A DNA stretch of 42,675 nucleotides from Verrucomicrobiota bacterium (GTDB taxonomy: Bacteria > Verrucomicrobiota > Verrucomicrobiia > Verrucomicrobiales > DEV007), in NCBI GenBank assembly GCA_030625775.1, contig DAOUQC010000040.1, positions 1 to 42,675 on the forward strand, read 5' to 3'. The stretch's first letter is position 1, and the number at the start of each line of letters is the position of its first letter. The notes under the pieces are model-generated. The model was not told the DNA's origin. It did not search any database and saw nothing but the letters and a program-made list of their open reading frames with translations. The translations under genes were made by a program, and so were the position numbers. Positions 2,482 through 38,593 of the stretch are shown piece by piece.

Positions 2482-3663
2482 TTACTCAAATTTACTAACC
2501 GGCCCACCTTCCAATTCTTTTACGATGGCAGGCTGCTCGTCAATGATTGTCCAATCCGGCAGCGGCACTTTTTCTCCCCCCTTCAATGCTGATTCATGGG
2601 AAAGAATACCGCTGCAGGTGATGTTTGCCCCCTGCCTGGCATTTGGATAAGGCTCACGCTCCTCCTTCAAAGCGGAAATAAATTCGTGTACCAAATGTGG
2701 GTGTGATCCTCCGTGCCCACCACCTTGAGTAAAACTCAGGTGCTGCTCCCCCCCCTCACCACCGTAGACTCCGCCAGTCGTAAAACACTGAATCTCTTCC
2801 GGCAACCGATGCGCGTAATCCGGAATTTCAACTCTCTCGGGTTTTTCCCCGCGATGAATAATATGGCCGGCATCCTCGATCAAGCTCCACTCGAAACTCT
2901 TTTTCTCGGCATAAACATCAAAGCTCTCCCGATACTGGCGCGACACATTAAATAACGAACGGGTCACTTCAGCAAACAGATCACTGTCCTTGAACTTGAT
3001 GTGCGTCGATTCGATGCAAAAAGGAGAATCGTAATTTTTATGCATGTGCTGCTCAATAGTTCCCGACCCTATGCAACGAACCCACTCCGCCTGGTTTTGC
3101 CCCAGGGCCAGAGTTGGCGAAATCGCATGGGTGCCATTATACATTGGAGGCAACCCTTCCCAGTATTCCGGCCAGCCCCCCATATCCTGAACATGCGAGG
3201 AACGAAAAAACTGTAACTTACCCAAGTCCCCCTTGTCGTAGAGTTCCTTCACAAACAAATACTCCCGGCTGTAAACCACCGTCTCCATCATCATATAAGT
3301 TTTTCCGCTTGCGACCTGTGCATCCACGATGCGTTTGCAGTCCGCCACCGAAACTGCCATGGGAATCGTACAGGCCACATGTTTGCCTGCCTCAAGCGCC
3401 TTCACCGTTTGATCAGCATGAAGAAAAGGCGGCGTATTGATGTGAACAATGTCGATACGATCATCCTGCAACATCTGCTCGTAGTCACAGTAGCGCCCGG
3501 CCTCCGGTATCCCAAAGGACTCACCCACCTTATTGAGCTCTGCTTCGGTTCGCTGACAAATGGCCACCATTTCAGTATCCGGATGCCGCTGGTATATAGG
3601 GATGAATTCTGCGCCAAAGCTTAGACCGACAATGGCTACTCGATATGGATTATTCGAAGTCAT
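2482..3663 (-). CDS. Gfo/Idh/MocA family NAD(P)-dependent oxidoreductase
   Basis: This 393-residue protein has an N-terminal Rossmann fold opening RVAIVGLSFGAEF (about residues 8-20) and the family's NTPPFLHADQTVKALEAGKHV segment (about 76-96), so it is a sugar or cyclitol dehydrogenase-type enzyme. The usual EKP motif after GKHV is replaced by TIP (residues 99-101), which removes the conserved lysine; the fold can be assigned but the reaction cannot. A Gly/His-rich stretch (GGGHGGSHPHLVHEF) lies near the C-terminus. An in-frame start exists upstream at 3741, but the ATG at 3663 begins the conserved domain directly and was preferred. No clear Shine-Dalgarno is present. It is probably co-transcribed with the ThuA-dehydrogenase and is divergent from the first AraC regulator, which may control it. 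Confidence 0.9.
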   Translation of the reverse strand: MTSNNPYRVAIVGLSFGAEFIPIYQRHPDTEMVAICQRTEAELNKVGESFGIPEAGRYCDYEQMLQDDRIDIVHINTPPFLHADQTVKALEAGKHVACTIPMAVSVADCKRIVDAQVASGKTYMMMETVVYSREYLFVKELYDKGDLGKLQFFRSSHVQDMGGWPEYWEGLPPMYNGTHAISPTLALGQNQAEWVRCIGSGTIEQHMHKNYDSPFCIESTHIKFKDSDLFAEVTRSLFNVSRQYRESFDVYAEKKSFEWSLIEDAGHIIHRGEKPERVEIPDYAHRLPEEIQCFTTGGVYGGEGGEQHLSFTQGGGHGGSHPHLVHEFISALKEEREPYPNARQGANITCSGILSHESALKGGEKVPLPDWTIIDEQPAIVKELEGGPVSKFE

Positions 3664-3783
3664 GATATTGTTTTTTATGAGGGATTCTAATAGCGGCAAA
3701 CTGGCAATATTCCCCTGTGACTTGAACAAATTAAACCACAACTATCTACTCATCTTGTCGTTTTCAGATTTGTTTTAGTATTA

Positions 3784-3802: not shown

Positions 3803-3879
3803 ATTTTTTTAAAAAAGCGACTCAATTGCCCTCTCCCTCTCAATGGCTCTGTATCAATCGACTTCCTCCGTCTTCCGCC

Positions 3880-4629
3880 ATGACCTTCGATCAAACACAA
3901 AAAAAAAGAGCCCGCCTGTTTGAATTGCTGGCCCCGGAAAGCCGTTTTTATCATCTATTCAATTTTGTTGATGGACTCTCATTCTTTGCAAAAGATACCG
4001 AAGGAGTGCTTTTAGCTGCCAACCAACACCTTGTTTCCCTCTATGGATTCCAAAGCGAAAACGAATTGATAGGACTCACCGATTTTGATTTATTACCTGG
4101 TCAACTGGCTGAGAAATACCGGAGTGATGATTTATTTATCATGAAATCGCGCCGCCCCACCATCAATCTGGTTGAGCTGTTTCTTAATCCCCAAGGCATA
4201 CCCTCTTGGTTTTTGACCACAAAACTCCCCATGCTCTCCAATACCGGAGAGGTGCTCGGTGTCATGGGAATCATCCAAAGTTACGATCAATACCGGAAGA
4301 AGCACCCTGACCAGGGTAGTATTCAAATCGCGATGGATACAATGGCCCGGGAATACCGCCGCAAACTATCCGTTCAGGAACTAGCCCAATCGTGCCAGCT
4401 TTCACTGCGACAATTCGAACGCAAGTTCAAAGCCCACTTCAACCTGAGTCCACAGGAGTTCATCATCAAATTGCGCATTTGCGACGCCTGCTCCCTGCTG
4501 CGCAAAAAATCACAAGCCATCGGTGAAATATCCATCGACCTTGGTTTTTATGATCAAAGCTCCTTCACCCGGCAATTTAAAAAAGCCACTGGGCTCACCC
4601 CGCTGCAATATCAAAAGCAGTTTTTATGA
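3880..4629 (+). CDS. AraC-family regulator with N-terminal PAS-like sensor (paralogue 1)
   Basis: This 249-residue protein has a PAS_4-like domain at about residues 25-140 (FNFVDGLSFFAKDTEG, then TDFDLLPGQLAEKYRSDD) and an AraC double helix-turn-helix at about 150-249. The second HTH carries the family signature ISIDLGFYDQSSFTRQFKKATGLTP. Such a layout suggests a cytoplasmic ligand-sensing transcription factor. The open frame extends upstream to a TTG at 3826, but the ATG at 3880 starts nearer the conserved region and was chosen; no Shine-Dalgarno supports either. It is divergent from the Gfo/Idh-ThuA operon, which is its most likely target, and is followed by a second protein of the same architecture. 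Confidence 0.88.
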   Translation: MTFDQTQKKRARLFELLAPESRFYHLFNFVDGLSFFAKDTEGVLLAANQHLVSLYGFQSENELIGLTDFDLLPGQLAEKYRSDDLFIMKSRRPTINLVELFLNPQGIPSWFLTTKLPMLSNTGEVLGVMGIIQSYDQYRKKHPDQGSIQIAMDTMAREYRRKLSVQELAQSCQLSLRQFERKFKAHFNLSPQEFIIKLRICDACSLLRKKSQAIGEISIDLGFYDQSSFTRQFKKATGLTPLQYQKQFL

Positions 4630-4819: not shown

Positions 4820-5560
4820 ATGCACTCCGAAGCCCAAACCAAGCTCCTCTCTCTTTTGCGTCATGAAGAAGTCGAATCCTTATTCAATTTTCTCGGTGAC
4901 ATCCAATTTTGGATCAAGGAAGCGGCGGGAGGCTACCTACGGGTGAATCGTGCCTTTCAGCTAAATTATTCACTATCAAGTATCGAGGAAGCAATAGGGA
5001 AAACGGATTTCGATCTGTCGCCGCCCTGGTTAGCTGAAGCATTCCGGGCCGATGACGAGCTGGCGCTTGAAGGAAAGCAAATCGTGAACCGCATTGAACT
5101 GGTAGGTAGATTTGACATGGCCGAGCGGTGGTTTTGCACCTCAAAGGTTCCTGTGCACGATGCGGCTGGGCACATTGTCGCAACTGCTGGAGTATCTCAA
5201 CCCTTACCGGAATTACAGGCGCCTGACTTCCCTGTGCCGGAACTGGCGGCCGCTCTGGCAGGCTTGCAGCAGGCCCCCGAGAAATCATGGACCAACGAAG
5301 CCCTGGCTCGTTTGGTGGGTATGTCGGTGAGCTCGTTCGAGCGCCGTTTCCGACAACATTTGCAAACGTCGCCCATGCAGTTTCTGAAACGCCTGCGTTT
5401 GGCACATGCTGCCGCCAGCCTTATTCAATCCTCACATTCGATTTCAGAGATTGCGATTGAAAATGGATTCAGTGATCAAGCCCATTTATCACGGGAATTC
5501 AAACGACTATTTGGTGCGACTCCTAGCGGATGGCGGGCGAGTCATTCTTCCAGAGATTGA
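4820..5560 (+). CDS. AraC-family regulator with N-terminal PAS-like sensor (paralogue 2)
   Basis: This 246-residue protein has the same layout as its upstream neighbour. A PAS_4-like domain covers about residues 15-135 (FNFLGDIQFWIKEAAGGYLRVN, with the shared TDFDLSP...LAEAFRADD motif). An AraC-type HTH pair covers about 150-240, with ISEIAIENGFSDQAHLSREFKRLFGATP as the second helix-turn-helix. The shared TDFDL-x-P...LAE...R-x-DD block indicates common descent, but the paralogues differ over most of their length, so the duplication is not recent. Gene spacing (190 bp) and its own leader with a tandem repeat suggest separate regulation. Targets may include the downstream amidohydrolase or the large secreted protein. 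Confidence 0.88.
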   Translation: MHSEAQTKLLSLLRHEEVESLFNFLGDIQFWIKEAAGGYLRVNRAFQLNYSLSSIEEAIGKTDFDLSPPWLAEAFRADDELALEGKQIVNRIELVGRFDMAERWFCTSKVPVHDAAGHIVATAGVSQPLPELQAPDFPVPELAAALAGLQQAPEKSWTNEALARLVGMSVSSFERRFRQHLQTSPMQFLKRLRLAHAAASLIQSSHSISEIAIENGFSDQAHLSREFKRLFGATPSGWRASHSSRD

Positions 5561-5665: not shown

Positions 5666-6418
5666 ATGACGATTATTACTAATGGAACCCTGATTGACGG
5701 GACGGGCGCCCCCCCCGTTCCTGATGGGTGCGTGATTGTTATAAACGGACGCATCACTTATGCGGGGCCGACTGAAGGCGCTCCGGAATCACCACCTGAC
5801 GCTTGCCAGATTGATGCCCGAAATGGCACAATAATGCCGGGTCTGGTGGAGGCTCATTTTCACGCCACCTACTTCAATATCGAGGAACTGCAGGATCTCG
5901 ACATCAAATACCCAGTCGAATACGTCAGCATGCTTGCAACCGTAAATGCTAAGCTAGATTTAGAATGTGGCTATACGGCGGCACGTAGCGGAGGGTGTTT
6001 ATTCAATACCGATGTCTGGCTGAAAAAAGCCATTGAGGACGGGCTCATCCCTGGCCCGCATCTCTCCACATCAGGGCGCGAGATTTGTAGTGCAGGTGGA
6101 TTGATGGATTGGAACCCCGAGTTTCGAAAAATGGGCATGCGGGGTCTCGTATTCATTATCAACGGGGTTAAAGATGCCCGCAGCGCCGTGCGTGCGCTCG
6201 TTAAAGACGGCATCGAGTGGGTAAAAACCTATCCTGCCGGTGATGCCGCATCACCCGACGCCAATGATCACCACACGCTTTGCATGTCCTTCGAGGAAAT
6301 GAACGCCGTAGTGCAAACCGCGCATAATCACAATCTCAAAGTCACCGACCACTGCCGTGCTACGCAAGGCATCAAGAACACCTTGCAGGCAGGATACGAT
6401 CCACACTTGCACTACTAA
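5666..6418 (+). pseudogene. Amidohydrolase-family protein lacking the C-terminal half
   Basis: The 250 codons match the N-terminal half of a metal-dependent amidohydrolase (imidazolonepropionase/prolidase-like type; full-length members are about 400 residues). Visible features are the beta-strand cap IITNGTLIDGTGA, the metal motif H64-F-H66 in VEAHFHATY, K187 in WVKTYPAG (the usual carbamylated lysine) and H229 in VTDHC. Homology stops at AGYD (residues 242-245), where the strand-6 histidine would follow. The frame then ends after five unrelated residues, and no remnant of the missing half is seen before the next gene (ATG at 6437). The strand-6 His and strand-8 Asp are absent, so hydrolase activity is unlikely. 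A good GGAG ribosome site (5654-5657) remains. A shortened functional product is less likely but possible. Confidence 0.75.
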
Positions 6419-6436: not shown

Positions 6437-9400
6437 ATGAAATCAGCCACTTACCTTTTCATTATCCTGTTCACTTTTCTCGCATCGCTTCACGCTGAGC
6501 AGGACACGCTTTTTGAAAAATCCAATCTTGCTGCGTGGTGCATCGTGCCATTCGATGCTGGTAAACGAGGCCCGGAAGAACGTGCCGCGATGCTGGAGAA
6601 GATAGGGATAAATAAATTTGTCTATGACTATCGTGCTGAACACATCCCATTCTGGGATGATGAAATGAATGCGCTCAAAAAACATCATATTGAGCTGGTG
6701 GGCTGGTGGTTTCCTGGTTCACTCAATCATAAAGCAAAAAAAACGCTCGAACTTTTCAAGCGTCATGGTGTGCATCCACAGCTTTGGATTAGCGGAGGGG
6801 GTGGGACAAGCACGGTGAAAGATGAAGCGGATCAAAAAAACCGCATCTCAAAGGAAGTTGCACGCTTCAAACCAATCTGTGAAGCCGCCGCCCGGTTGGG
6901 CTGTCAGGTTGGAATTTACAACCATGGCGGCTGGGGCGGAGAACCAGAGAACGCACTCGCTGTCACCAAGGCCTTGAAAGCGCAGGGTATAAAAAATATA
7001 GGAATCGTTTATAACCTCCATCACGGCCATGCTCATCTTGATCGTCTGGAAAAAGTAATGGCGCTAATGTTGCCACATCTGCTCTGCGTTAATCTCAACG
7101 GAATGGACATCGATGGCGAAGCGAAGGGGAGAAAGATTCTCCCACTCGGCGCAGGCACCGAAGATCTGAAGGTGCTGCGTATCATCCGCTCCAGCGGCTA
7201 TCAAGGCCCCATTGGCATTCTAAATCACACGGACAAGGATGCGGAAAGCCGTCTGCTCGATAACCTCGACGGCCTGAGTTGGCTTCTACCTCAACTCGAC
7301 GACAATCCGCCCACTGAAAAACCGAAGTATCGTACCTGGATAGAAAAACCGGTCAAGACAGCACTCGACGACACATCCAGGTTTCCCATTACAGGCCAGA
7401 CTGTGCCTTCCTTGAATAAGGAATATGGCGAGGCATTAAAAGGTAGCCTGTTTCAGCAAGATAATGAAGTGTTCCGCACGCTGCCGATCTCTATTGAGTG
7501 CCGAGTGAAACTGACAAGCAAAGATAATTACAACATCATCATCGCATCCGATACCAAAGCTTCCGCCACTCATTGGGAGCTTTACACCCATGCCGGTCGC
7601 GGCACACTAGCCCTCTTCCTGCCGGGCCGTGGTGGTGACTACGATTCACAGGTAAATATTTGCGATGGACAGTGGCATGATGTGCTGGCCAGTATCGATG
7701 AAAAAGCCGTGGTGCTTTGGGTGGATGGCAAACAGGTTTTGGATAAGCCTGTGCAAACTCTCAGAGGTGATTCGAAATCCGGCGGCATCTCCTTCGGTCA
7801 ACTCGTCAAAGGCGGCATAGGTTGTGATGGAATTATTGATGATGTGCGTATTTCACGCGGCACGTTGAAACCCCACGCAAGTGATTCACCTAGAATGCGA
7901 ATGGACAACACGCTTGGCCTTTGGGATTTCGATCATCTTGTTTCAATGTTGCCCACGAAAACGCCCACACTTGCCGACTTCAATCCTGGCCTCAAACCGT
8001 TGCGACCAGAAGACGCCCGGCACTGGCAGGCATTCGTTAATCGTGACCGCATTTTCGACTATTACGCAAAACAGGCGCTGCACTTCATGAAGCAAAAGCA
8101 GTTGCCCGGTCTCATCCCTTCTTTTCCCGGCCTCGACGGCGGCAAACAAGGGCATTGGGGCAATCAAAACGACAAAGAGACATGGAAGGATGGACGCTTT
8201 GCGAACTCCGATCTAGGATCTGTTTTTTGCACTGTCTTTAAAGGCGGCGGCATGACGATCCCAAAGGGTATTTGTGTCAAAACTGCAGATAAATCGGCCT
8301 GTTTTGACCCAATGACACTGAGCTTCCCGGTGATCTGGAATGGCGGTTTCATTGAGCTTAATCACTTTCGCCATGGTTTCATGGGCGGAGGTAAGATGAC
8401 TGGTAAACTGATTAGCAAAGAGGAAAGCAAAGGTGCTGATGATCCAGGCGTATATCACGGCTTCTATCGTCACGGGGAAAATGTCATCTTCAGTTACTCT
8501 ATCGAAGGCCATCCTTACCTCGCCACATTGTCAGCCGGGCAACAGGAGCCTGAGAATCTTTTATCCCTTACCAAGGGGGGGCCTCCCCAATGGCCGCAGT
8601 GGATCGAAACCAAAGGCTTACTTGGGAAACAGGAAAACTTCGCTACAGATACGATCACAGTTCCATTCAAAAACCCCTATGGAACACTCTTCTTCATTAG
8701 CGGCCACGATTTTTTCAGTGATGGCAACGCAGCGATCTCGACAATGACCGGTGAGGTCTGGATTGTACGCGGCATCGACGATAAGCTCAAAAAAATTCGC
8801 TGGAAACGTTTTGCCACCGGCTTGCATCAACCTCTGGGCTTAAAGATTGTGAAAGACAAAATTTACGTACTGGGTCGTGATCAAATCACCCGCCTGCATG
8901 ATCTGAATGGCGATGATGAAGCAGACTTCTACGAGTGCGTGTCCAATGCGATGGAAACTTCGCCGGGTGGCCATGATTTCATCACGGGATTGGAGTGTGA
9001 TGAGCAGGGAAGATTCTACTTTGCCTCGGGCAATCAGGGTATATGCCGAGTGACAAGTCCTAATCGTTTCAACGAGAAGCTCGATGTTCTCGCTACCGGC
9101 ATGCGCAATCCGAACGGTCTCGGCATCTCTCCTGACGGACGCTTCATCACCACGAGTGTTCAGGAAGGCAATTGGACACCGGCCTCATCCATTTGCCAGG
9201 TCGAGATGGGTAAGAATGAAGGAGCGCATTTTGGTGCAGGTGGCCCGCGCAAAGGTGAAAAGCCAGCATCACCTCTTATGTATTTGCCACGTGGGGAAGA
9301 CAACTCATCCAGTAGTCAGGCTTTCATCACAGGCGATGCTTGGACGAGTTTGAAAGGCGATGGCAACTTAGTACACCTTTCTTCAGGCGGCGGCAGTGCG

Positions 9401-10426
9401 TGGCTGGTGATGCGGCAGCAGGTTAATAATCAATGGCAGGGAGCGGCGGTGCGGATCGCCAACAGTTTTGATTCCGGGCCACAGGCGGCAAGATTTAATT
9501 CCCGGGATGGGCAATTGTATGTGAGTGGCATGCAGGGTTGGGGCAACTACACCCCAAAGGACGGTTCCTTTCAGCGCATTCGTTTCACTGGAAACTCACC
9601 CCCCATGCCGATAAGGTTTGAAGCTCGCAAAAACGGCGTGTTGTTGCAATTCAATCAAGTACTTGATGCGAAAGTACTTGCTGACACCTCCAATCATTTC
9701 GTGCAGTGCTGGAATTATCGCTACAGCGCCGCCTATGGATCGCCGGAATATTCCGTGCGCTATGCCGGCACCCCGGGTCACGACCCGCTGGAAGTTCGTA
9801 GTGCGCAGGTGCTCGATGGTGGTAAAACGCTTTTTCTAGAGATCCCGCAAATTCTTCCCGCCAGCCAGATTCATTTGCATGTGGGTGTGACCGACAAACG
9901 TGCCCACGATATCTTTTTAACTGCGCATGCTTTGGCGCCGGAGTTTACTCAATTCCCAGGTTATGTAAAAATCGCCAAGGCGAGTCATACGGCTCTGAAT
10001 AGCGTGACCGCACCGACTGGAAGCAAGCCGAACCCCTGGGCTAAAGGCGAGCAAGGTCGCCGGATTGTTGTCGAAGCTGCTCTTGGCCTTCAATATGTGC
10101 AGAAGGAACTCAGCGTCAAAGCGGGTGAGCGCATCAGCCTAACTTTCAAGAACCCCGATGTGGTGCCGCACAACTGGATGCTCGGCAAACCCGGCACATT
10201 GCATGCTCTTGGCAATCTCGCCGACTTGATGATCACCGATCCTCAGGGATTGGCGAAGCATTACGTGCCTGACTCAAAAGATGTGATTGTTTACACCGAC
10301 ATAACGAATGCGAAGAAGTCGTTCACCATCCACTTCACTGCGCCAAAAGAGAAAGGTGATTACCCCTATCTATGTACTTTCCCCGGCCACTGGGCAGTCA
10401 TGAATGGAGTCCTCACTGTAGAATGA
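6437..10426 (+). CDS. Secreted TIM-barrel / LamG-like / DUF6797-type / propeller / azurin-like copper fusion protein
   Basis: This 1329-residue exported protein has a signal peptide at 1-20. Domains in order: a sugar-phosphate-isomerase-like TIM barrel (about 28-290, NHGGWGGEPEN at 162-172); a concanavalin/LamG-like lectin fold (about 335-480, GQWHDVLASID and WVDGKQV); a PVC module resembling DUF6797 (about 510-740, PGLDGGKQGHWGNQNDK); a glucose/sorbosone-dehydrogenase-like propeller (about 745-1090); and an azurin-like cupredoxin (about 1207-1329). The copper ligands are visible: H1245 in VPHNW, then C1313, H1318 and M1322 with exact azurin spacing (C-x4-H-x3-M). No CxxCH haem motif exists, so the copper domain may be the electron acceptor of a sugar-oxidising propeller; this is inferred. 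The ATG is 18 bp after the truncated amidohydrolase stop, with an AGGA (6420-6423) upstream. Confidence 0.88.
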   Translation: MKSATYLFIILFTFLASLHAEQDTLFEKSNLAAWCIVPFDAGKRGPEERAAMLEKIGINKFVYDYRAEHIPFWDDEMNALKKHHIELVGWWFPGSLNHKAKKTLELFKRHGVHPQLWISGGGGTSTVKDEADQKNRISKEVARFKPICEAAARLGCQVGIYNHGGWGGEPENALAVTKALKAQGIKNIGIVYNLHHGHAHLDRLEKVMALMLPHLLCVNLNGMDIDGEAKGRKILPLGAGTEDLKVLRIIRSSGYQGPIGILNHTDKDAESRLLDNLDGLSWLLPQLDDNPPTEKPKYRTWIEKPVKTALDDTSRFPITGQTVPSLNKEYGEALKGSLFQQDNEVFRTLPISIECRVKLTSKDNYNIIIASDTKASATHWELYTHAGRGTLALFLPGRGGDYDSQVNICDGQWHDVLASIDEKAVVLWVDGKQVLDKPVQTLRGDSKSGGISFGQLVKGGIGCDGIIDDVRISRGTLKPHASDSPRMRMDNTLGLWDFDHLVSMLPTKTPTLADFNPGLKPLRPEDARHWQAFVNRDRIFDYYAKQALHFMKQKQLPGLIPSFPGLDGGKQGHWGNQNDKETWKDGRFANSDLGSVFCTVFKGGGMTIPKGICVKTADKSACFDPMTLSFPVIWNGGFIELNHFRHGFMGGGKMTGKLISKEESKGADDPGVYHGFYRHGENVIFSYSIEGHPYLATLSAGQQEPENLLSLTKGGPPQWPQWIETKGLLGKQENFATDTITVPFKNPYGTLFFISGHDFFSDGNAAISTMTGEVWIVRGIDDKLKKIRWKRFATGLHQPLGLKIVKDKIYVLGRDQITRLHDLNGDDEADFYECVSNAMETSPGGHDFITGLECDEQGRFYFASGNQGICRVTSPNRFNEKLDVLATGMRNPNGLGISPDGRFITTSVQEGNWTPASSICQVEMGKNEGAHFGAGGPRKGEKPASPLMYLPRGEDNSSSSQAFITGDAWTSLKGDGNLVHLSSGGGSAWLVMRQQVNNQWQGAAVRIANSFDSGPQAARFNSRDGQLYVSGMQGWGNYTPKDGSFQRIRFTGNSPPMPIRFEARKNGVLLQFNQVLDAKVLADTSNHFVQCWNYRYSAAYGSPEYSVRYAGTPGHDPLEVRSAQVLDGGKTLFLEIPQILPASQIHLHVGVTDKRAHDIFLTAHALAPEFTQFPGYVKIAKASHTALNSVTAPTGSKPNPWAKGEQGRRIVVEAALGLQYVQKELSVKAGERISLTFKNPDVVPHNWMLGKPGTLHALGNLADLMITDPQGLAKHYVPDSKDVIVYTDITNAKKSFTIHFTAPKEKGDYPYLCTFPGHWAVMNGVLTVE

Positions 10427-32757: not shown

Positions 32758-35700
32758 TCACTCATCACTTCCGCCCTTCTCCTCCGACACTTCCAGCGGC
32801 TTGTCTCCGGCCCATTTTCCTGTCTCCGGCATATAGACCATCGAGAACGAGGTCTGCAGTGGGTAGTTGCACACACAACCCGTCGCAAAGCTCGGCACGT
32901 TCAGTAATCCTCCAGCAGCCACCAAACTGTTGCTGCAACCACTTCTCAGATTACGCAAACTGAACTGCTGTCCCTTTTCCAAATCGACATAAGCCGCACT
33001 TTTGTAGCGCAGGAAAAGCAGGCTATCACTGCCTACCGTGTAGTTGCAGGATCCGCGTTTGAATAGAGGCTTTTTAGTGAGAATTTTCCCACTAGTCACC
33101 TCGTATCGATGGCCCGCCTGATTGATAAAATTATCCCCCCCAAGAATCAAAGGTTGCAGGCCTGCACTCGCAGAGTGCCACTTTTCCTCCCCTGTTTTTA
33201 CATCGACAGCCCGCATCTCACTCGACTTCCCGGTCAGCAACAGGCCATGTTCTGTGTTGAAAGCCTGCCAGTCGTCGTAGGGACGAATTGCCAAAGGCCC
33301 TCTGCCCAGCATATTGCGGAATTTATAATCATACTGTTTTTGCCATTTGATCGTTCCAGTCCTCTCATCCATAGCGAGAATTTTTGAAGGAAAGGTTTCC
33401 GGTACTTTCCCCCGCCTTTCCATCTGGTCTGCCCGTGCAGGAGAAATCGAATCTGCAGCAAATACCAAACCGCCCCCCATGGCGATGGAGTGCAAATTAA
33501 AACGCTGCTCAGCTGCAGTCGTCCACAACTGCTTGCCGCTTTTCCGGTCCAGAGCCACCAATACCTTCGCATCCCACAAACCGTGATCCATGGCTCCGTG
33601 ACTGTGTTCGTTTTCCGGCAGGTCGTAGCCGACCCCGATCAGCAAAATGTTTTCATTTGCCCGCACTGCCACCACCCCTGCTTTTTTTCCCTTCGGCACA
33701 TCCACCTGTAAAGCCAGACTCTCCTTCACCTCTCCCGTCACCGGGTCGAGCACATCACACTTCAAATCACTTGCCACATACACCGCATCGGCAAAGGTAA
33801 CATAACGAACCAGGGAAGTGTCCACCTTCCGCTTCCAGAACATACGACCGGTATAAATATCAATCGCCCGCAATTCTTTCTTACCATCATCAAAGGCAAT
33901 CAAACGCCCCTCCGCCACCTGCGGTTTCACCCCTCGTCCATAATCCTTGTATTTCTCAAATCCGTAATCCGTCCCATCCCCATACCACAGAATCCCCAAG
34001 GGAGCCTGAACGCGTTTGTCTGAAGAAAAATACACCCGCGAGGCATCACCGGTTTCATGGGTCCAATCCGCAGAACCTTCCAACGCACCGCGACGCTGGA
34101 CTATTAACTTAGCACCCGAAGCATTCACGTGTGCTCCCGGCAGCTTCGCTACAATATAACGCGCTCGAAAACTCTCACCATCCTCGGCCACCATCGTGCC
34201 TCCATACGGGCGAAGCAATTCATACAGCTCTGCTTCTTTCATCCTCGCCAAAGGACTTTCTTCCCCAGTCTTTTCCGATACAATCAAATTAGCTAAATAA
34301 GAAGGCCATTTGATTGACTGCGGATCTGCGACAAACACTTCAGCACGGCCCGCATACAAACCTGCCTCTCTCAGGGTTTTGCGCAAAGCTTCGACTTTTT
34401 TCCGGTCCGCATCAACGGCTATCACTTTCATTTCCGACTGGGTGAGCAATTCCTCCACCAGAGCCCCGTTCTCCAAACCCAATACCACCGCATACCCCTG
34501 GTTCGTTCCCTCCGAGGCCAGCGCTTCGGCCGCTTTTTTTACCCAGCCGTCGTCCTTGCCACGTTTCACCAATTCCTGTTTCGGCAACTCGTATTTTTTC
34601 ACCACCTCCACCAATGTATCGGCAAAACAAAGAACCCTTCCCTCTTCCAGAACCACAAACAATTTCCCGTCCGCCACCAGCATGCTGGTCGGAATCCCCT
34701 CCAATTCCTGTTTCCAGACTACCTTGGGTTTACCTTCTTTTTCCGGCAGTTCGACAGCCATCAATGTTTTACCAACATGAGTGTAAATGCGTCCACCCGA
34801 TTTGATGATCACCCGCGTTTTTTCCTTGGAACCAGCTCCCAAAGAAAAATGTTCCCATAGTGATGGAGCATCCCAACGAGCAGGATGGATTAGATGAGGC
34901 CCGTCTTTCTTTTCATAAAGCGACACTTCTGCATGATGAACATCCCAGCCGAATAAAGCTCCTTTGCTCACTCCGTAAGCCTTGCCCCCATCCAATGCCG
35001 AGCGAAAATCACAGGCAGCCATGAACTTGTATCCATGTAAAGGGCCTTCGAACAAATCCCTTTTACTGCCAACATAACCCTCGGGAGCATCCTTGCCAGC
35101 TGACTTCCAGCGGTCACCCACTTCACGCCCGTCCTTCAGACTAACTACTCCCCCGTCACCCACGAACATAAAGCGGTCGGTTGCCGTCACCCGTGAATCT
35201 CCACGACGAAAACCCTGTACAAAATAAAGTAGTTTACCTGTCTCCGGTTCAAAGCGTGCCGGCATCGAACGCCCGTTCGGCACCACCACTTTACCGTCGG
35301 CAAACAGACAATACCCTTGGGGAGACAAAGCTGCCTCTTCCAGCAAATTGTGGTCAATTCTGACTTTTGACAGATAATTGATGTCACCGTTCGCCCAAAC
35401 TACCTCACCGGTTTTGGCATCAACCGCTTTAACAAAAACCCCCATCGACGGCCAGATACCGGCTCCAAAATACACCACCCCTTTTTCAATCACCGGTCCA
35501 CCGCGTACCGGCCACAAGGAGATCAAACGCGAGTTCCCCAACTGACGATAATCCGCCCGGTCATCCGATGCCCCACGCACCTTCCAGCGCAATTCCCCTG
35601 TCGCCGCATCCAGGTGATAAAGATAGCCATCATCCGAACCAAAATACAGCCCGTCCTGCCAGGCCACCGGAGCAAACCGAATCGGCCCTTCACTATAAAA

Positions 35701-36021
35701 CTTCCACAACTCCGCTCCTGATTCCGTATCATAAGCACTCACACTGCCATCCAGAGGAGATCCAACAAACAAACGGTTGCCCTTCACGACCGGCTCGATC
35801 GACGCATCAAAATGCAAGCGCGGCTCATTCGGCCAGGCCAAGCGAGCCGGAGCCACCGCCCGCGACCAATTGAGATGCAATTTATCTGCCAGTTTTTCAG
35901 AACTGACCCCACTGCGTTTGGCATCGTGCCGCCACATCGGCCAGTCACCTGCGTGAATCCCGGAAATTGGAATCTCAAGCAAAAGTGCACCAATCAGACA
36001 AAGTCGAAACAGGAATTTCAT
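32758..36021 (-). CDS. Exported PQQ-like beta-propeller protein with a methyltransferase-like Rossmann insert
   Basis: This 1087-residue exported protein has a signal peptide at about 1-25 and begins DWPMWRHDAKRSG, typical of PVC PQQ-propeller proteins. Propeller repeats (YDTESGAELWKFYS, LDAATGELRWKV, VDAKTGEVVWAN) fill about 75-465, and more occur at about 700-1040 (IDIYTGRMFWKRKV). Between them, residues about 507-640 read as a class I SAM-methyltransferase-like fold: YAVVLGLENGALVEELL, VIAVDADRKKVEALRKTL, then VFVADPQSIKW. The glycine-rich loop is degenerate, so SAM binding is doubtful in a periplasmic protein. The ATG at 36021 follows an AAGGGT ribosome-like site; the longer start at 36057 was rejected. 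It is divergent from the ceramidase-like gene. Confidence 0.88.
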   Translation of the reverse strand: MKFLFRLCLIGALLLEIPISGIHAGDWPMWRHDAKRSGVSSEKLADKLHLNWSRAVAPARLAWPNEPRLHFDASIEPVVKGNRLFVGSPLDGSVSAYDTESGAELWKFYSEGPIRFAPVAWQDGLYFGSDDGYLYHLDAATGELRWKVRGASDDRADYRQLGNSRLISLWPVRGGPVIEKGVVYFGAGIWPSMGVFVKAVDAKTGEVVWANGDINYLSKVRIDHNLLEEAALSPQGYCLFADGKVVVPNGRSMPARFEPETGKLLYFVQGFRRGDSRVTATDRFMFVGDGGVVSLKDGREVGDRWKSAGKDAPEGYVGSKRDLFEGPLHGYKFMAACDFRSALDGGKAYGVSKGALFGWDVHHAEVSLYEKKDGPHLIHPARWDAPSLWEHFSLGAGSKEKTRVIIKSGGRIYTHVGKTLMAVELPEKEGKPKVVWKQELEGIPTSMLVADGKLFVVLEEGRVLCFADTLVEVVKKYELPKQELVKRGKDDGWVKKAAEALASEGTNQGYAVVLGLENGALVEELLTQSEMKVIAVDADRKKVEALRKTLREAGLYAGRAEVFVADPQSIKWPSYLANLIVSEKTGEESPLARMKEAELYELLRPYGGTMVAEDGESFRARYIVAKLPGAHVNASGAKLIVQRRGALEGSADWTHETGDASRVYFSSDKRVQAPLGILWYGDGTDYGFEKYKDYGRGVKPQVAEGRLIAFDDGKKELRAIDIYTGRMFWKRKVDTSLVRYVTFADAVYVASDLKCDVLDPVTGEVKESLALQVDVPKGKKAGVVAVRANENILLIGVGYDLPENEHSHGAMDHGLWDAKVLVALDRKSGKQLWTTAAEQRFNLHSIAMGGGLVFAADSISPARADQMERRGKVPETFPSKILAMDERTGTIKWQKQYDYKFRNMLGRGPLAIRPYDDWQAFNTEHGLLLTGKSSEMRAVDVKTGEEKWHSASAGLQPLILGGDNFINQAGHRYEVTSGKILTKKPLFKRGSCNYTVGSDSLLFLRYKSAAYVDLEKGQQFSLRNLRSGCSNSLVAAGGLLNVPSFATGCVCNYPLQTSFSMVYMPETGKWAGDKPLEVSEEKGGSDE

Positions 36022-36092
36022 AGCAATACCCTTGCCACAATCCCTTTTACTTCTCAACTACTGAGTCCTGCTTCTCTGTTTTTAAAAATAAT

Positions 36093-37624: not shown

Positions 37625-38593
37625 TCAAGCCGTGGTCTTTGCCTGACACTTCTTCAGATATTCAATGCTCTCCTTCGCCAGCCGTTCCGGCCCGGGTTTG
37701 TAATTGAATACCTCGACTGAAATCCAACCTTTGTATTTCAGGTCTCGCAACTCCTGCAGGATCGGCACAAAATCCAAATCACCAAATCCCGGCCCCTGCG
37801 CATTGGGATCATTCACCTGCACATGCACTGTCAGGTTTTTGTATTTGCGAATGATCTCTGGAATCGGAGTCCCTTCAGTGGACATCGCCAGGCAGTCAAG
37901 AATCAGGCGACAGCGTGGATCGTTTACTTTATCGATCAACTCAACCGCTCCCGCTGCTGTACTCATAAAATTAGTCGTGCGCGGTGACAGAGGCTCGAAC
38001 GCCAATGTCACATTCGCTTTTTCCAAAGCAGGCAGAGCTTCTTCAACCACTTCAGCCGCGTATTCCAAACCTTTTTCTTTAGTAACACCCTCACGTAAAT
38101 CACGCTGCTTGGGTGAACCGAAAATAAGTTTGTCACCTCCGAGGTCGGCACAGAAACGAGCTAGATCACCAAGATAAGCTGCCGTGCGCTTTCGTTCATC
38201 ACGATCAGCGCTGGTCAGATGAAATCCCTTGGTCCTCGACAGCAACCAGTGCAGGCCGAGAATTTTGAGCCCCGCAGCTTCCGCTTGAGAATGAACCTTT
38301 TTCCTCTTAGCAAGCGTGACATCCCTCACATCATTCGACACCGTGAACGGTGCCACTTCCAAAGCTTTGTATCCGCACTCCGCAGCGAAGGCGAAGGCCT
38401 TTTCAAAAGGCCAGTCGCGAAAGGTCTCGTTGCAGATCGCAAACTGCTGATCAAAAATTCCAGCCCCATCTGTTTTTTTTGTTTGAGAAAAAACCGAAGC
38501 AGATGGAATCATCGCTCCCCCCAGAGCAACTCCAAGAGCCTTGGAAAACTGGCGTCGACTTTGAGGCAGGATTGATTGAACGGGGGATTTCAT
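37625..38593 (-). CDS. Tat-exported sugar phosphate isomerase/epimerase-like TIM barrel
   Basis: This 322-residue protein has a twin-arginine motif SRRQFSK (12-18) and a hydrophobic stretch up to about residue 38, so it is probably exported by Tat. The remainder is an AP-endonuclease-2-like TIM barrel (about 50-315) with FAFAAECGYKALEV, LAFEPLSPRTT, LILDCLAMS and the C-terminal GWISVEVFNY. The conserved metal-binding Glu/Asp/His residues of xylose-isomerase-like proteins are plausibly present (E in FEPL, D in LDCL, H in VHVQV, E in SVEVF). The reaction is unknown. The ATG at 38593 exposes the Tat signal. The gene is convergent with the ceramidase-like gene and preceded by a tandem 16-bp repeat. 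Confidence 0.88.
   Translation of the reverse strand: MKSPVQSILPQSRRQFSKALGVALGGAMIPSASVFSQTKKTDGAGIFDQQFAICNETFRDWPFEKAFAFAAECGYKALEVAPFTVSNDVRDVTLAKRKKVHSQAEAAGLKILGLHWLLSRTKGFHLTSADRDERKRTAAYLGDLARFCADLGGDKLIFGSPKQRDLREGVTKEKGLEYAAEVVEEALPALEKANVTLAFEPLSPRTTNFMSTAAGAVELIDKVNDPRCRLILDCLAMSTEGTPIPEIIRKYKNLTVHVQVNDPNAQGPGFGDLDFVPILQELRDLKYKGWISVEVFNYKPGPERLAKESIEYLKKCQAKTTA

Follow-up and report, generated by a model that had tools for sequence, protein, structure and literature searches.

The 42,675-nucleotide stretch of Verrucomicrobiota DNA analysed here (contig DAOUQC010000040.1 of assembly GCA_030625775.1, hereafter called the window) raises the question of what may be achieved by a single polypeptide that joins a sugar-isomerase-like barrel, a lectin-like module, a β-propeller, and an azurin-type copper domain. 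The polypeptide is encoded by an open reading frame (ORF) at positions 6437–10426 of the forward strand, which runs uninterrupted from its ATG and specifies a multi-module, predicted secreted protein of 1329 amino acids (aa). A chance origin of this arrangement is excluded, as the whole chain is 50–72% identical across tens of genomes. As a whole it is best explained, in our view with moderate confidence, as an exported dehydrogenase provided with its own electron acceptor, in which the propeller would oxidise the substrate and the copper would accept the electrons. The principal new evidence suggesting that the back half of the protein produces electrons comes from the exchange of modules among its relatives.

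The chain opens with a Sec signal-peptide-like N-terminus (residues 1–20, positions 6437–6496), read by eye as MKSATYLFIILFTFLASLHA and ending in ASLHA before EQD; the N-termini of the orthologues are likewise hydrophobic and close with small residues. Next comes a xylose-isomerase-like TIM barrel (residues 24–294, positions 6506–7318), assigned by Foldseek, VIA, and hhalign comparisons and by Pfam AP_endonuc_2 (PF01261), whose match at residues 100–261 scores 27.6 bits, slightly below the cut-off of 31.1, which is passed by the relatives L042, L054, and L059. It is followed by a LamG/concanavalin-like domain (residues 343–479, positions 7463–7873), which passes the threshold of Laminin_G_3 (PF13385, 47 bits at a cut-off of 27.6) and matches laminin G chains in the PDB, and by DUF6797 (PF20601; residues 621–695, positions 8297–8521; 48.9 bits at a cut-off of 24.9). 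A six-bladed propeller resembling that of soluble glucose dehydrogenase (sGDH) occupies residues ca. 728–1052 (positions 8618–9592), and an azurin/plastocyanin-type cupredoxin ends the chain (residues 1216–1329, positions 10082–10423). The initial annotation, made from the sequence alone, had listed the barrel, LamG-like, propeller, and azurin modules on one secreted chain; all of them were recovered by Pfam and by AlphaFold modelling with structure search, while DUF6797 had been overlooked. The propeller region shows only weak matches, to DUF7133 and TIGR02604 (Pfam, NCBIfam). Identification of the whole protein as a PVC-type haem-binding CxxCH protein (TIGR02604) was rejected, the score being 28.9 bits vs. 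a cut-off of 122.2 and the haem motif being absent.

The C-terminal domain matches Copper-bind (PF00127) with 41.1 bits, above the cut-off of 21.2. It is not an azurin sensu stricto (TIGR02695, 38.3 bits vs. the equivalog cut-off of 105), and its closest solved cupredoxin is auracyanin A (4.4e-15), followed by azurins. The type-1 copper ligands H1245 (10169–10171), C1313 (10373–10375), H1318 (10388–10390), and M1322 (10400–10402), with the C-x4-H-x3-M spacing, sit exactly where they had been placed before, and the earlier statement that the ORF carries no haem motif is likewise borne out by the absence of CxxCH. The four ligands are identical in every full-length azurin-tailed orthologue, and the azurin tails of L017 and L024 also carry a C-x-H-x-M motif. 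About eight azurin-like matches are present in the genome that contributed the window, in which azurin domains are also joined to DUF7133 propeller and HEAT repeat proteins (L005, L007).

In seven relatives (L031, L050, L170, L171, L172, L173, and L174) the DUF6797-propeller is kept and a CxxCH cytochrome c stands in the position of the azurin, its haem motif lying directly beyond the part that aligns to residue ca. 1185. The same kind of barrel precedes it, only partial in L174, a copy situated at a contig edge. In a propeller tree of 69 rows these cytochrome forms constitute one clade (100/100) within the azurin-bearing part, and, given the starred branches, the azurin label must have changed at least twice. 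Since the trait shared by azurin and cytochrome c is one-electron transfer, the swap between them points to electron transfer as the job of this position. A second kind of exchange is found in L038, L040, and L042, in which the same barrel and LamG (46–53% identical) are followed by a PF01011 PQQ (pyrroloquinoline quinone) alcohol/glucose dehydrogenase (E of 1e-143 to 1e-151) and a cytochrome c. The top PDB matches of L038 are the quinohemoprotein alcohol dehydrogenases 1yiq, 1kv9, and 1kb0, and its D-x-W-D stretch is retained; PQQ signature patterns written as simple regular expressions gave no match in the three proteins. A known dehydrogenase in place of the whole back half argues that the back half is itself a dehydrogenase, most likely a periplasmic one handing electrons to its own copper, as far as sequence comparison and modelling can tell.

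Carrier exchange alone does not reveal the direction of the electrons, and the azurin or cytochrome might instead feed electrons from the respiratory chain into a reductase formed by the propeller/DUF6797 or the barrel half; nitrous oxide reductase, indeed, also unites a propeller with a cupredoxin. We regard this as very improbable, because what replaces the back half in the relatives just named is a PQQ dehydrogenase, an oxidising enzyme, and because the front modules belong to sugar-catabolic families. The likeness to nitrous oxide reductase itself (Foldseek 6rl0) was dismissed as that of a generic propeller plus cupredoxin, with TM-scores of 0.13–0.22. The front modules are exchangeable too: the DUF6797-propeller-azurin core carries a ThuA front in L159, L161–L165, L168, and L169, a FAD_oxidored front in L160, and a 3keto-disac_hyd front in L176. 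By comparison with the periplasmic LacABC-DUF1080 pathway, fronts of the 3-keto-sugar type suggest that the substrate of the dehydrogenase could be a sugar or glycoside.

The fold of the propeller agrees with an oxidising role. Two AlphaFold models, both built on the window sequence with orthologues supplying the alignment, were obtained with mean predicted local distance difference test values of 72.6 and 75.7 and poor linkers. The propeller is six-bladed, with 2ism, a Thermus glucose dehydrogenase homologue, as the top Foldseek match (1e-10) and the PQQ sugar dehydrogenases 3a9g and 1c9u ranking lower; VIA Z amounts to 18.9 for 2ism, 18.4 for 3a9g, 18.1 for 3das, and 16.4 for the fungal AA12 protein 6h7t. 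When aligned by hhalign with 19 GSDH proteins (prob 94, E 1e-7), His846 (8972–8974) corresponds to the catalytic His144 of sGDH, the pair Arg890-Asn891 (9104–9109) to Arg228-Asn229, and Gly911 (9167–9169) lies in a loop matching the calcium-binding Gly247 loop. Counted over 48 relatives, the haem-type ones included, His846 is kept in 46, Arg890 and Gly911 in all 48, and Asn891 in 32. In sGDH and AA12 enzymes the catalytic His and the Arg-Asn pair flank the PQQ carbonyls (PMC6881789, PMC6881810). The modelled propeller thus resembles those of soluble PQQ sugar dehydrogenases, with their catalytic His and Arg retained in the alignment.

Several observations weigh against the dehydrogenase reading. 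Designed, NHL, and SMP30 propellers equal the PQQ enzymes in VIA score, so that the fold alone leaves the function undecided, and the hhalign comparison with four proteins of SMP30 type encoded in that genome (prob 91, E 1e-6) is nearly equal to that with GSDH. GSDH (PF07995) is absent among the Pfam matches of the protein at E ≤ 1. For Lys377, Arg406, and Arg408, which hold the PQQ carboxylates in sGDH, no counterpart was matched, the alignment being too uncertain in this part; the invariant Arg1047 and the near-invariant Arg814 are candidates for this task, subject to the same uncertainty, which extends to the comparison with Arg273/Arg621 of AA12. As for biosynthesis of the cofactor, nothing scored over the cut-off for pqqE in the genome containing the window, and pqqC was found in none of 57 genomes searched within the order, this one included; the same pqqC search gave clear matches in another family of the class. 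PQQ, if used, must therefore come from outside, as it does in E. coli (PMC6881789), and a cofactor other than PQQ is possible.

The propeller ties are what would be expected if the propeller were a lactonase or hydrolase like SMP30-gluconolactonase, or an NHL-like scaffold without catalytic activity, with the azurin serving as a tethered independent shuttle or a copper store. SMP30/gluconolactonase (PF08450) identity was nevertheless rejected, as its Glu, Asn, Asn, and Asp metal ligands are not kept: the N-terminal Glu, the SPND Asn, and the DG Asp are not conserved, and only the PNG Asn aligns (kept in 31 of the 48 relatives), whereas the His and Arg of sGDH are retained. Moreover, a hydrolase does not account for the swap to a PQQ dehydrogenase with cytochrome c. 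A lactonase or scaffold is thus unlikely, and the dehydrogenase remains the reading that we prefer. The suggestion of the initial annotation that the chain is a self-contained sugar-oxidising enzyme with its own copper outlet is accordingly strengthened in its oxidising part, by the carrier exchange, the replacement by a PQQ dehydrogenase, and the conserved His and Arg, and is kept here in conditional form for the sugar.

The proposed course of events is as follows. The protein would be exported, probably to the periplasm, where the DUF6797-propeller half would oxidise a small organic molecule bearing hydroxyl groups, in all likelihood a sugar or glycoside, in an sGDH-like pocket, with His846 as the putative base and Arg890 adjacent to a cofactor carbonyl. 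The cofactor may be a quinone, for instance PQQ obtained by scavenging, or a different compound. The type-1 copper in the azurin domain at the C-terminus would take up the electrons and feed them into the respiratory chain, the fused cytochrome c presumably doing the job of the azurin in the close relatives. The barrel and LamG may serve to bind the substrate or its oxidised product, or to convert either of them further, and the ThuA, FAD-oxidoreductase, and 3-keto-disaccharide-hydrolase fronts would play an equivalent role on the same core in other lineages.

The barrel was described earlier as sugar-isomerase-like and as sharing the chain with a lectin-like module; its fold and the LamG domain were both found, and the metal tetrad of the isomerases was not. 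The fold gives a VIA Z of 19–21 to sugar isomerases and epimerases and a Foldseek E of ca. 1e-9, with the 3-keto-glucoside 4-epimerase YcjR, L-xylulose-5-phosphate 3-epimerase, tagatose epimerases, UlaE, and 4ovx among the structural matches, and hhalign aligns it with 24 PF01261 proteins of its own genome (prob 98). In this alignment Tyr161, Asn193, Asn219, and Leu262 occupy the sites of the Glu-Asp-His-Glu tetrad, whose members are kept in 22, 24, 13, and 23 of the 24 proteins, respectively. Identity as a metal-dependent sugar isomerase was rejected on account of this replacement, and the barrel is probably no ordinary sugar isomerase. Nevertheless, N162, H163, H195, H196, H198, and N221 of its pocket are near-invariant (31/31), which indicates some conserved job other than the usual metal chemistry. 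Such a pocket, together with the sugar substrates of the nearest folds, could also mean that oxidation or isomerisation of the sugar is catalysed by the barrel, with the propeller acting as a binding scaffold; this is rather improbable in view of the replaced tetrad, retained by the ordinary members that this genome encodes, and of the occurrence of the core with other fronts or without a barrel. Among the 33 xylose-isomerase-like PF01261 matches (E 1e-8) in this 4.9-Mb genome, one is located in the window, at 37646–38395 on the reverse strand.

It is conceivable, though we put it forward tentatively and rather doubt it, that the protein is a one-chain machine that oxidises and then processes, in which the repurposed barrel, having given up its customary metal site, and the quinoprotein-like DUF6797 propeller act sequentially on a bound sugar or glycoside (e.g., by forming a 3-keto sugar and then converting it) and the electrons leave via the fused copper, within a Verrucomicrobia family with exchangeable front enzyme, dehydrogenase, and carrier.

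A search of genome contigs yielded 34 loci, most of them from Verrucomicrobiaceae and Prosthecobacter metagenome-assembled genomes (MAGs) and isolates, and ca. 20 of the 34 have the complete domain order at 52–72% identity. In the family to which the source genome belongs, 55 of 75 genomes strongly match some part of the protein, ca. 20 of these over nearly the full chain, and across the phylum 26 of 288 are matched at E 1e-30. The domain order is common inside one family, and among the papers searched we found none characterising it and nothing relevant on DUF6797, PVC-type haem-binding proteins, or Verrucomicrobia/Planctomycetes azurins. Some labels call for caution. MAG contigs titled Akkermansia muciniphila, a species label that seems doubtful for genomes of this kind, bear an orthologue or the PQQ form (L019, L038). 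Two MAGs titled Proteobacteria (L033, L034) carry barrel, LamG, and DUF7133-like propeller proteins very near to those of the Verrucomicrobia L032 and L037, which makes a binning or label error likely.

In the window, the gene of the fusion protein is preceded, on the same strand, by two genes for PAS and AraC-type regulators identified by Pfam (3826–4629 and 4820–5560), the second being a conserved neighbour in the orthologue neighbourhoods, and by an amidohydrolase gene (5666–6418), which ends so that the fusion gene begins 18 bases downstream. The AraC and amidohydrolase genes lie upstream of the fusion gene in most orthologues, the cytochrome form L031 included, and in the PQQ form L038 an amidohydrolase 75% identical to that of the window stops 3 bases ahead of it. 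Comparison with relatives of ca. 430 aa reveals that the amidohydrolase of the window is shortened to 250 aa, with the last ca. 180 residues missing, and resembles a truncated partner enzyme, so that the gene set of the window may be partly decayed, with the fusion gene intact. A DUF6807 gene, absent from the window, separates the amidohydrolase and fusion genes in L009 (7972–8976) and probably also in other loci with a like-sized gene at that place. For the Gfo/Idh/MocA gene at 2482–3741 no conserved link was found in the orthologue flanks. A 1099-aa protein with PQQ_2/BamB-type propeller repeats is encoded elsewhere in the window (32758–36057, reverse strand).

Verrucomicrobia hold many uncharacterised proteins built from DUF6797, propellers, cytochromes, and azurins, and the exchange pattern offers a concrete hypothesis on the function of the DUF6797-propellers, namely that they are the dehydrogenase half, tentatively tied to sugar or glycoside oxidation. 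A built-in copper acceptor instead of haem could serve direct-electron-transfer biosensors. Enzymes with fused electron carriers are already known, and the azurin-bearing DUF6797-propeller form is a new variation on them.

A close parallel among known systems is the fungal pyranose dehydrogenase CcPDH, composed of an AA8 cytochrome b, an AA12 PQQ propeller, and CBM1 (PMC6881789, PMC4332668). It shares with the window protein a six-bladed PQQ-type propeller fold, a fused one-electron carrier, a fused module for carbohydrate binding (here, putatively, the LamG domain), and, by alignment, the catalytic His, Arg, and Asn. However, its carrier is cytochrome b rather than azurin, it has neither the TIM barrel nor DUF6797, and the sequence similarity of the window protein is too low for Pfam, its use of PQQ being only putative. 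Type II quinohemoprotein alcohol dehydrogenases (1yiq, 1kb0) also unite a dehydrogenase propeller with a fused carrier on one chain, and their true relatives replace the back half in L038, L040, and L042; nevertheless, their propeller is eight-bladed and unrelated in sequence to that of the window, and their carrier is a cytochrome c. By analogy, the protein may function in the manner of carrier-fused dehydrogenases of the quinohaem or AA12 type, although by profile it is no member of GSDH or AA12. The PVC-type haem-binding CxxCH/DUF7133 proteins have a related propeller and, in the two cases mentioned above, azurin tails as well, but the window protein lies far under their family cut-off and lacks the haem motif. 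YcjR (6wn6) and similar isomerase or epimerase barrels resemble the N-terminal domain in fold, without the tetrad being shared. Finally, in the periplasmic 3-keto-glycoside pathway of LacABC and DUF1080/PF06439 (PMC9007349), a glycoside is oxidised and a second enzyme then acts on the keto product, and the front modules of the relatives described here include PF06439, ThuA, and the isomerase-like barrel; LacABC, however, is a separate membrane-bound dehydrogenase with no azurin fusion.

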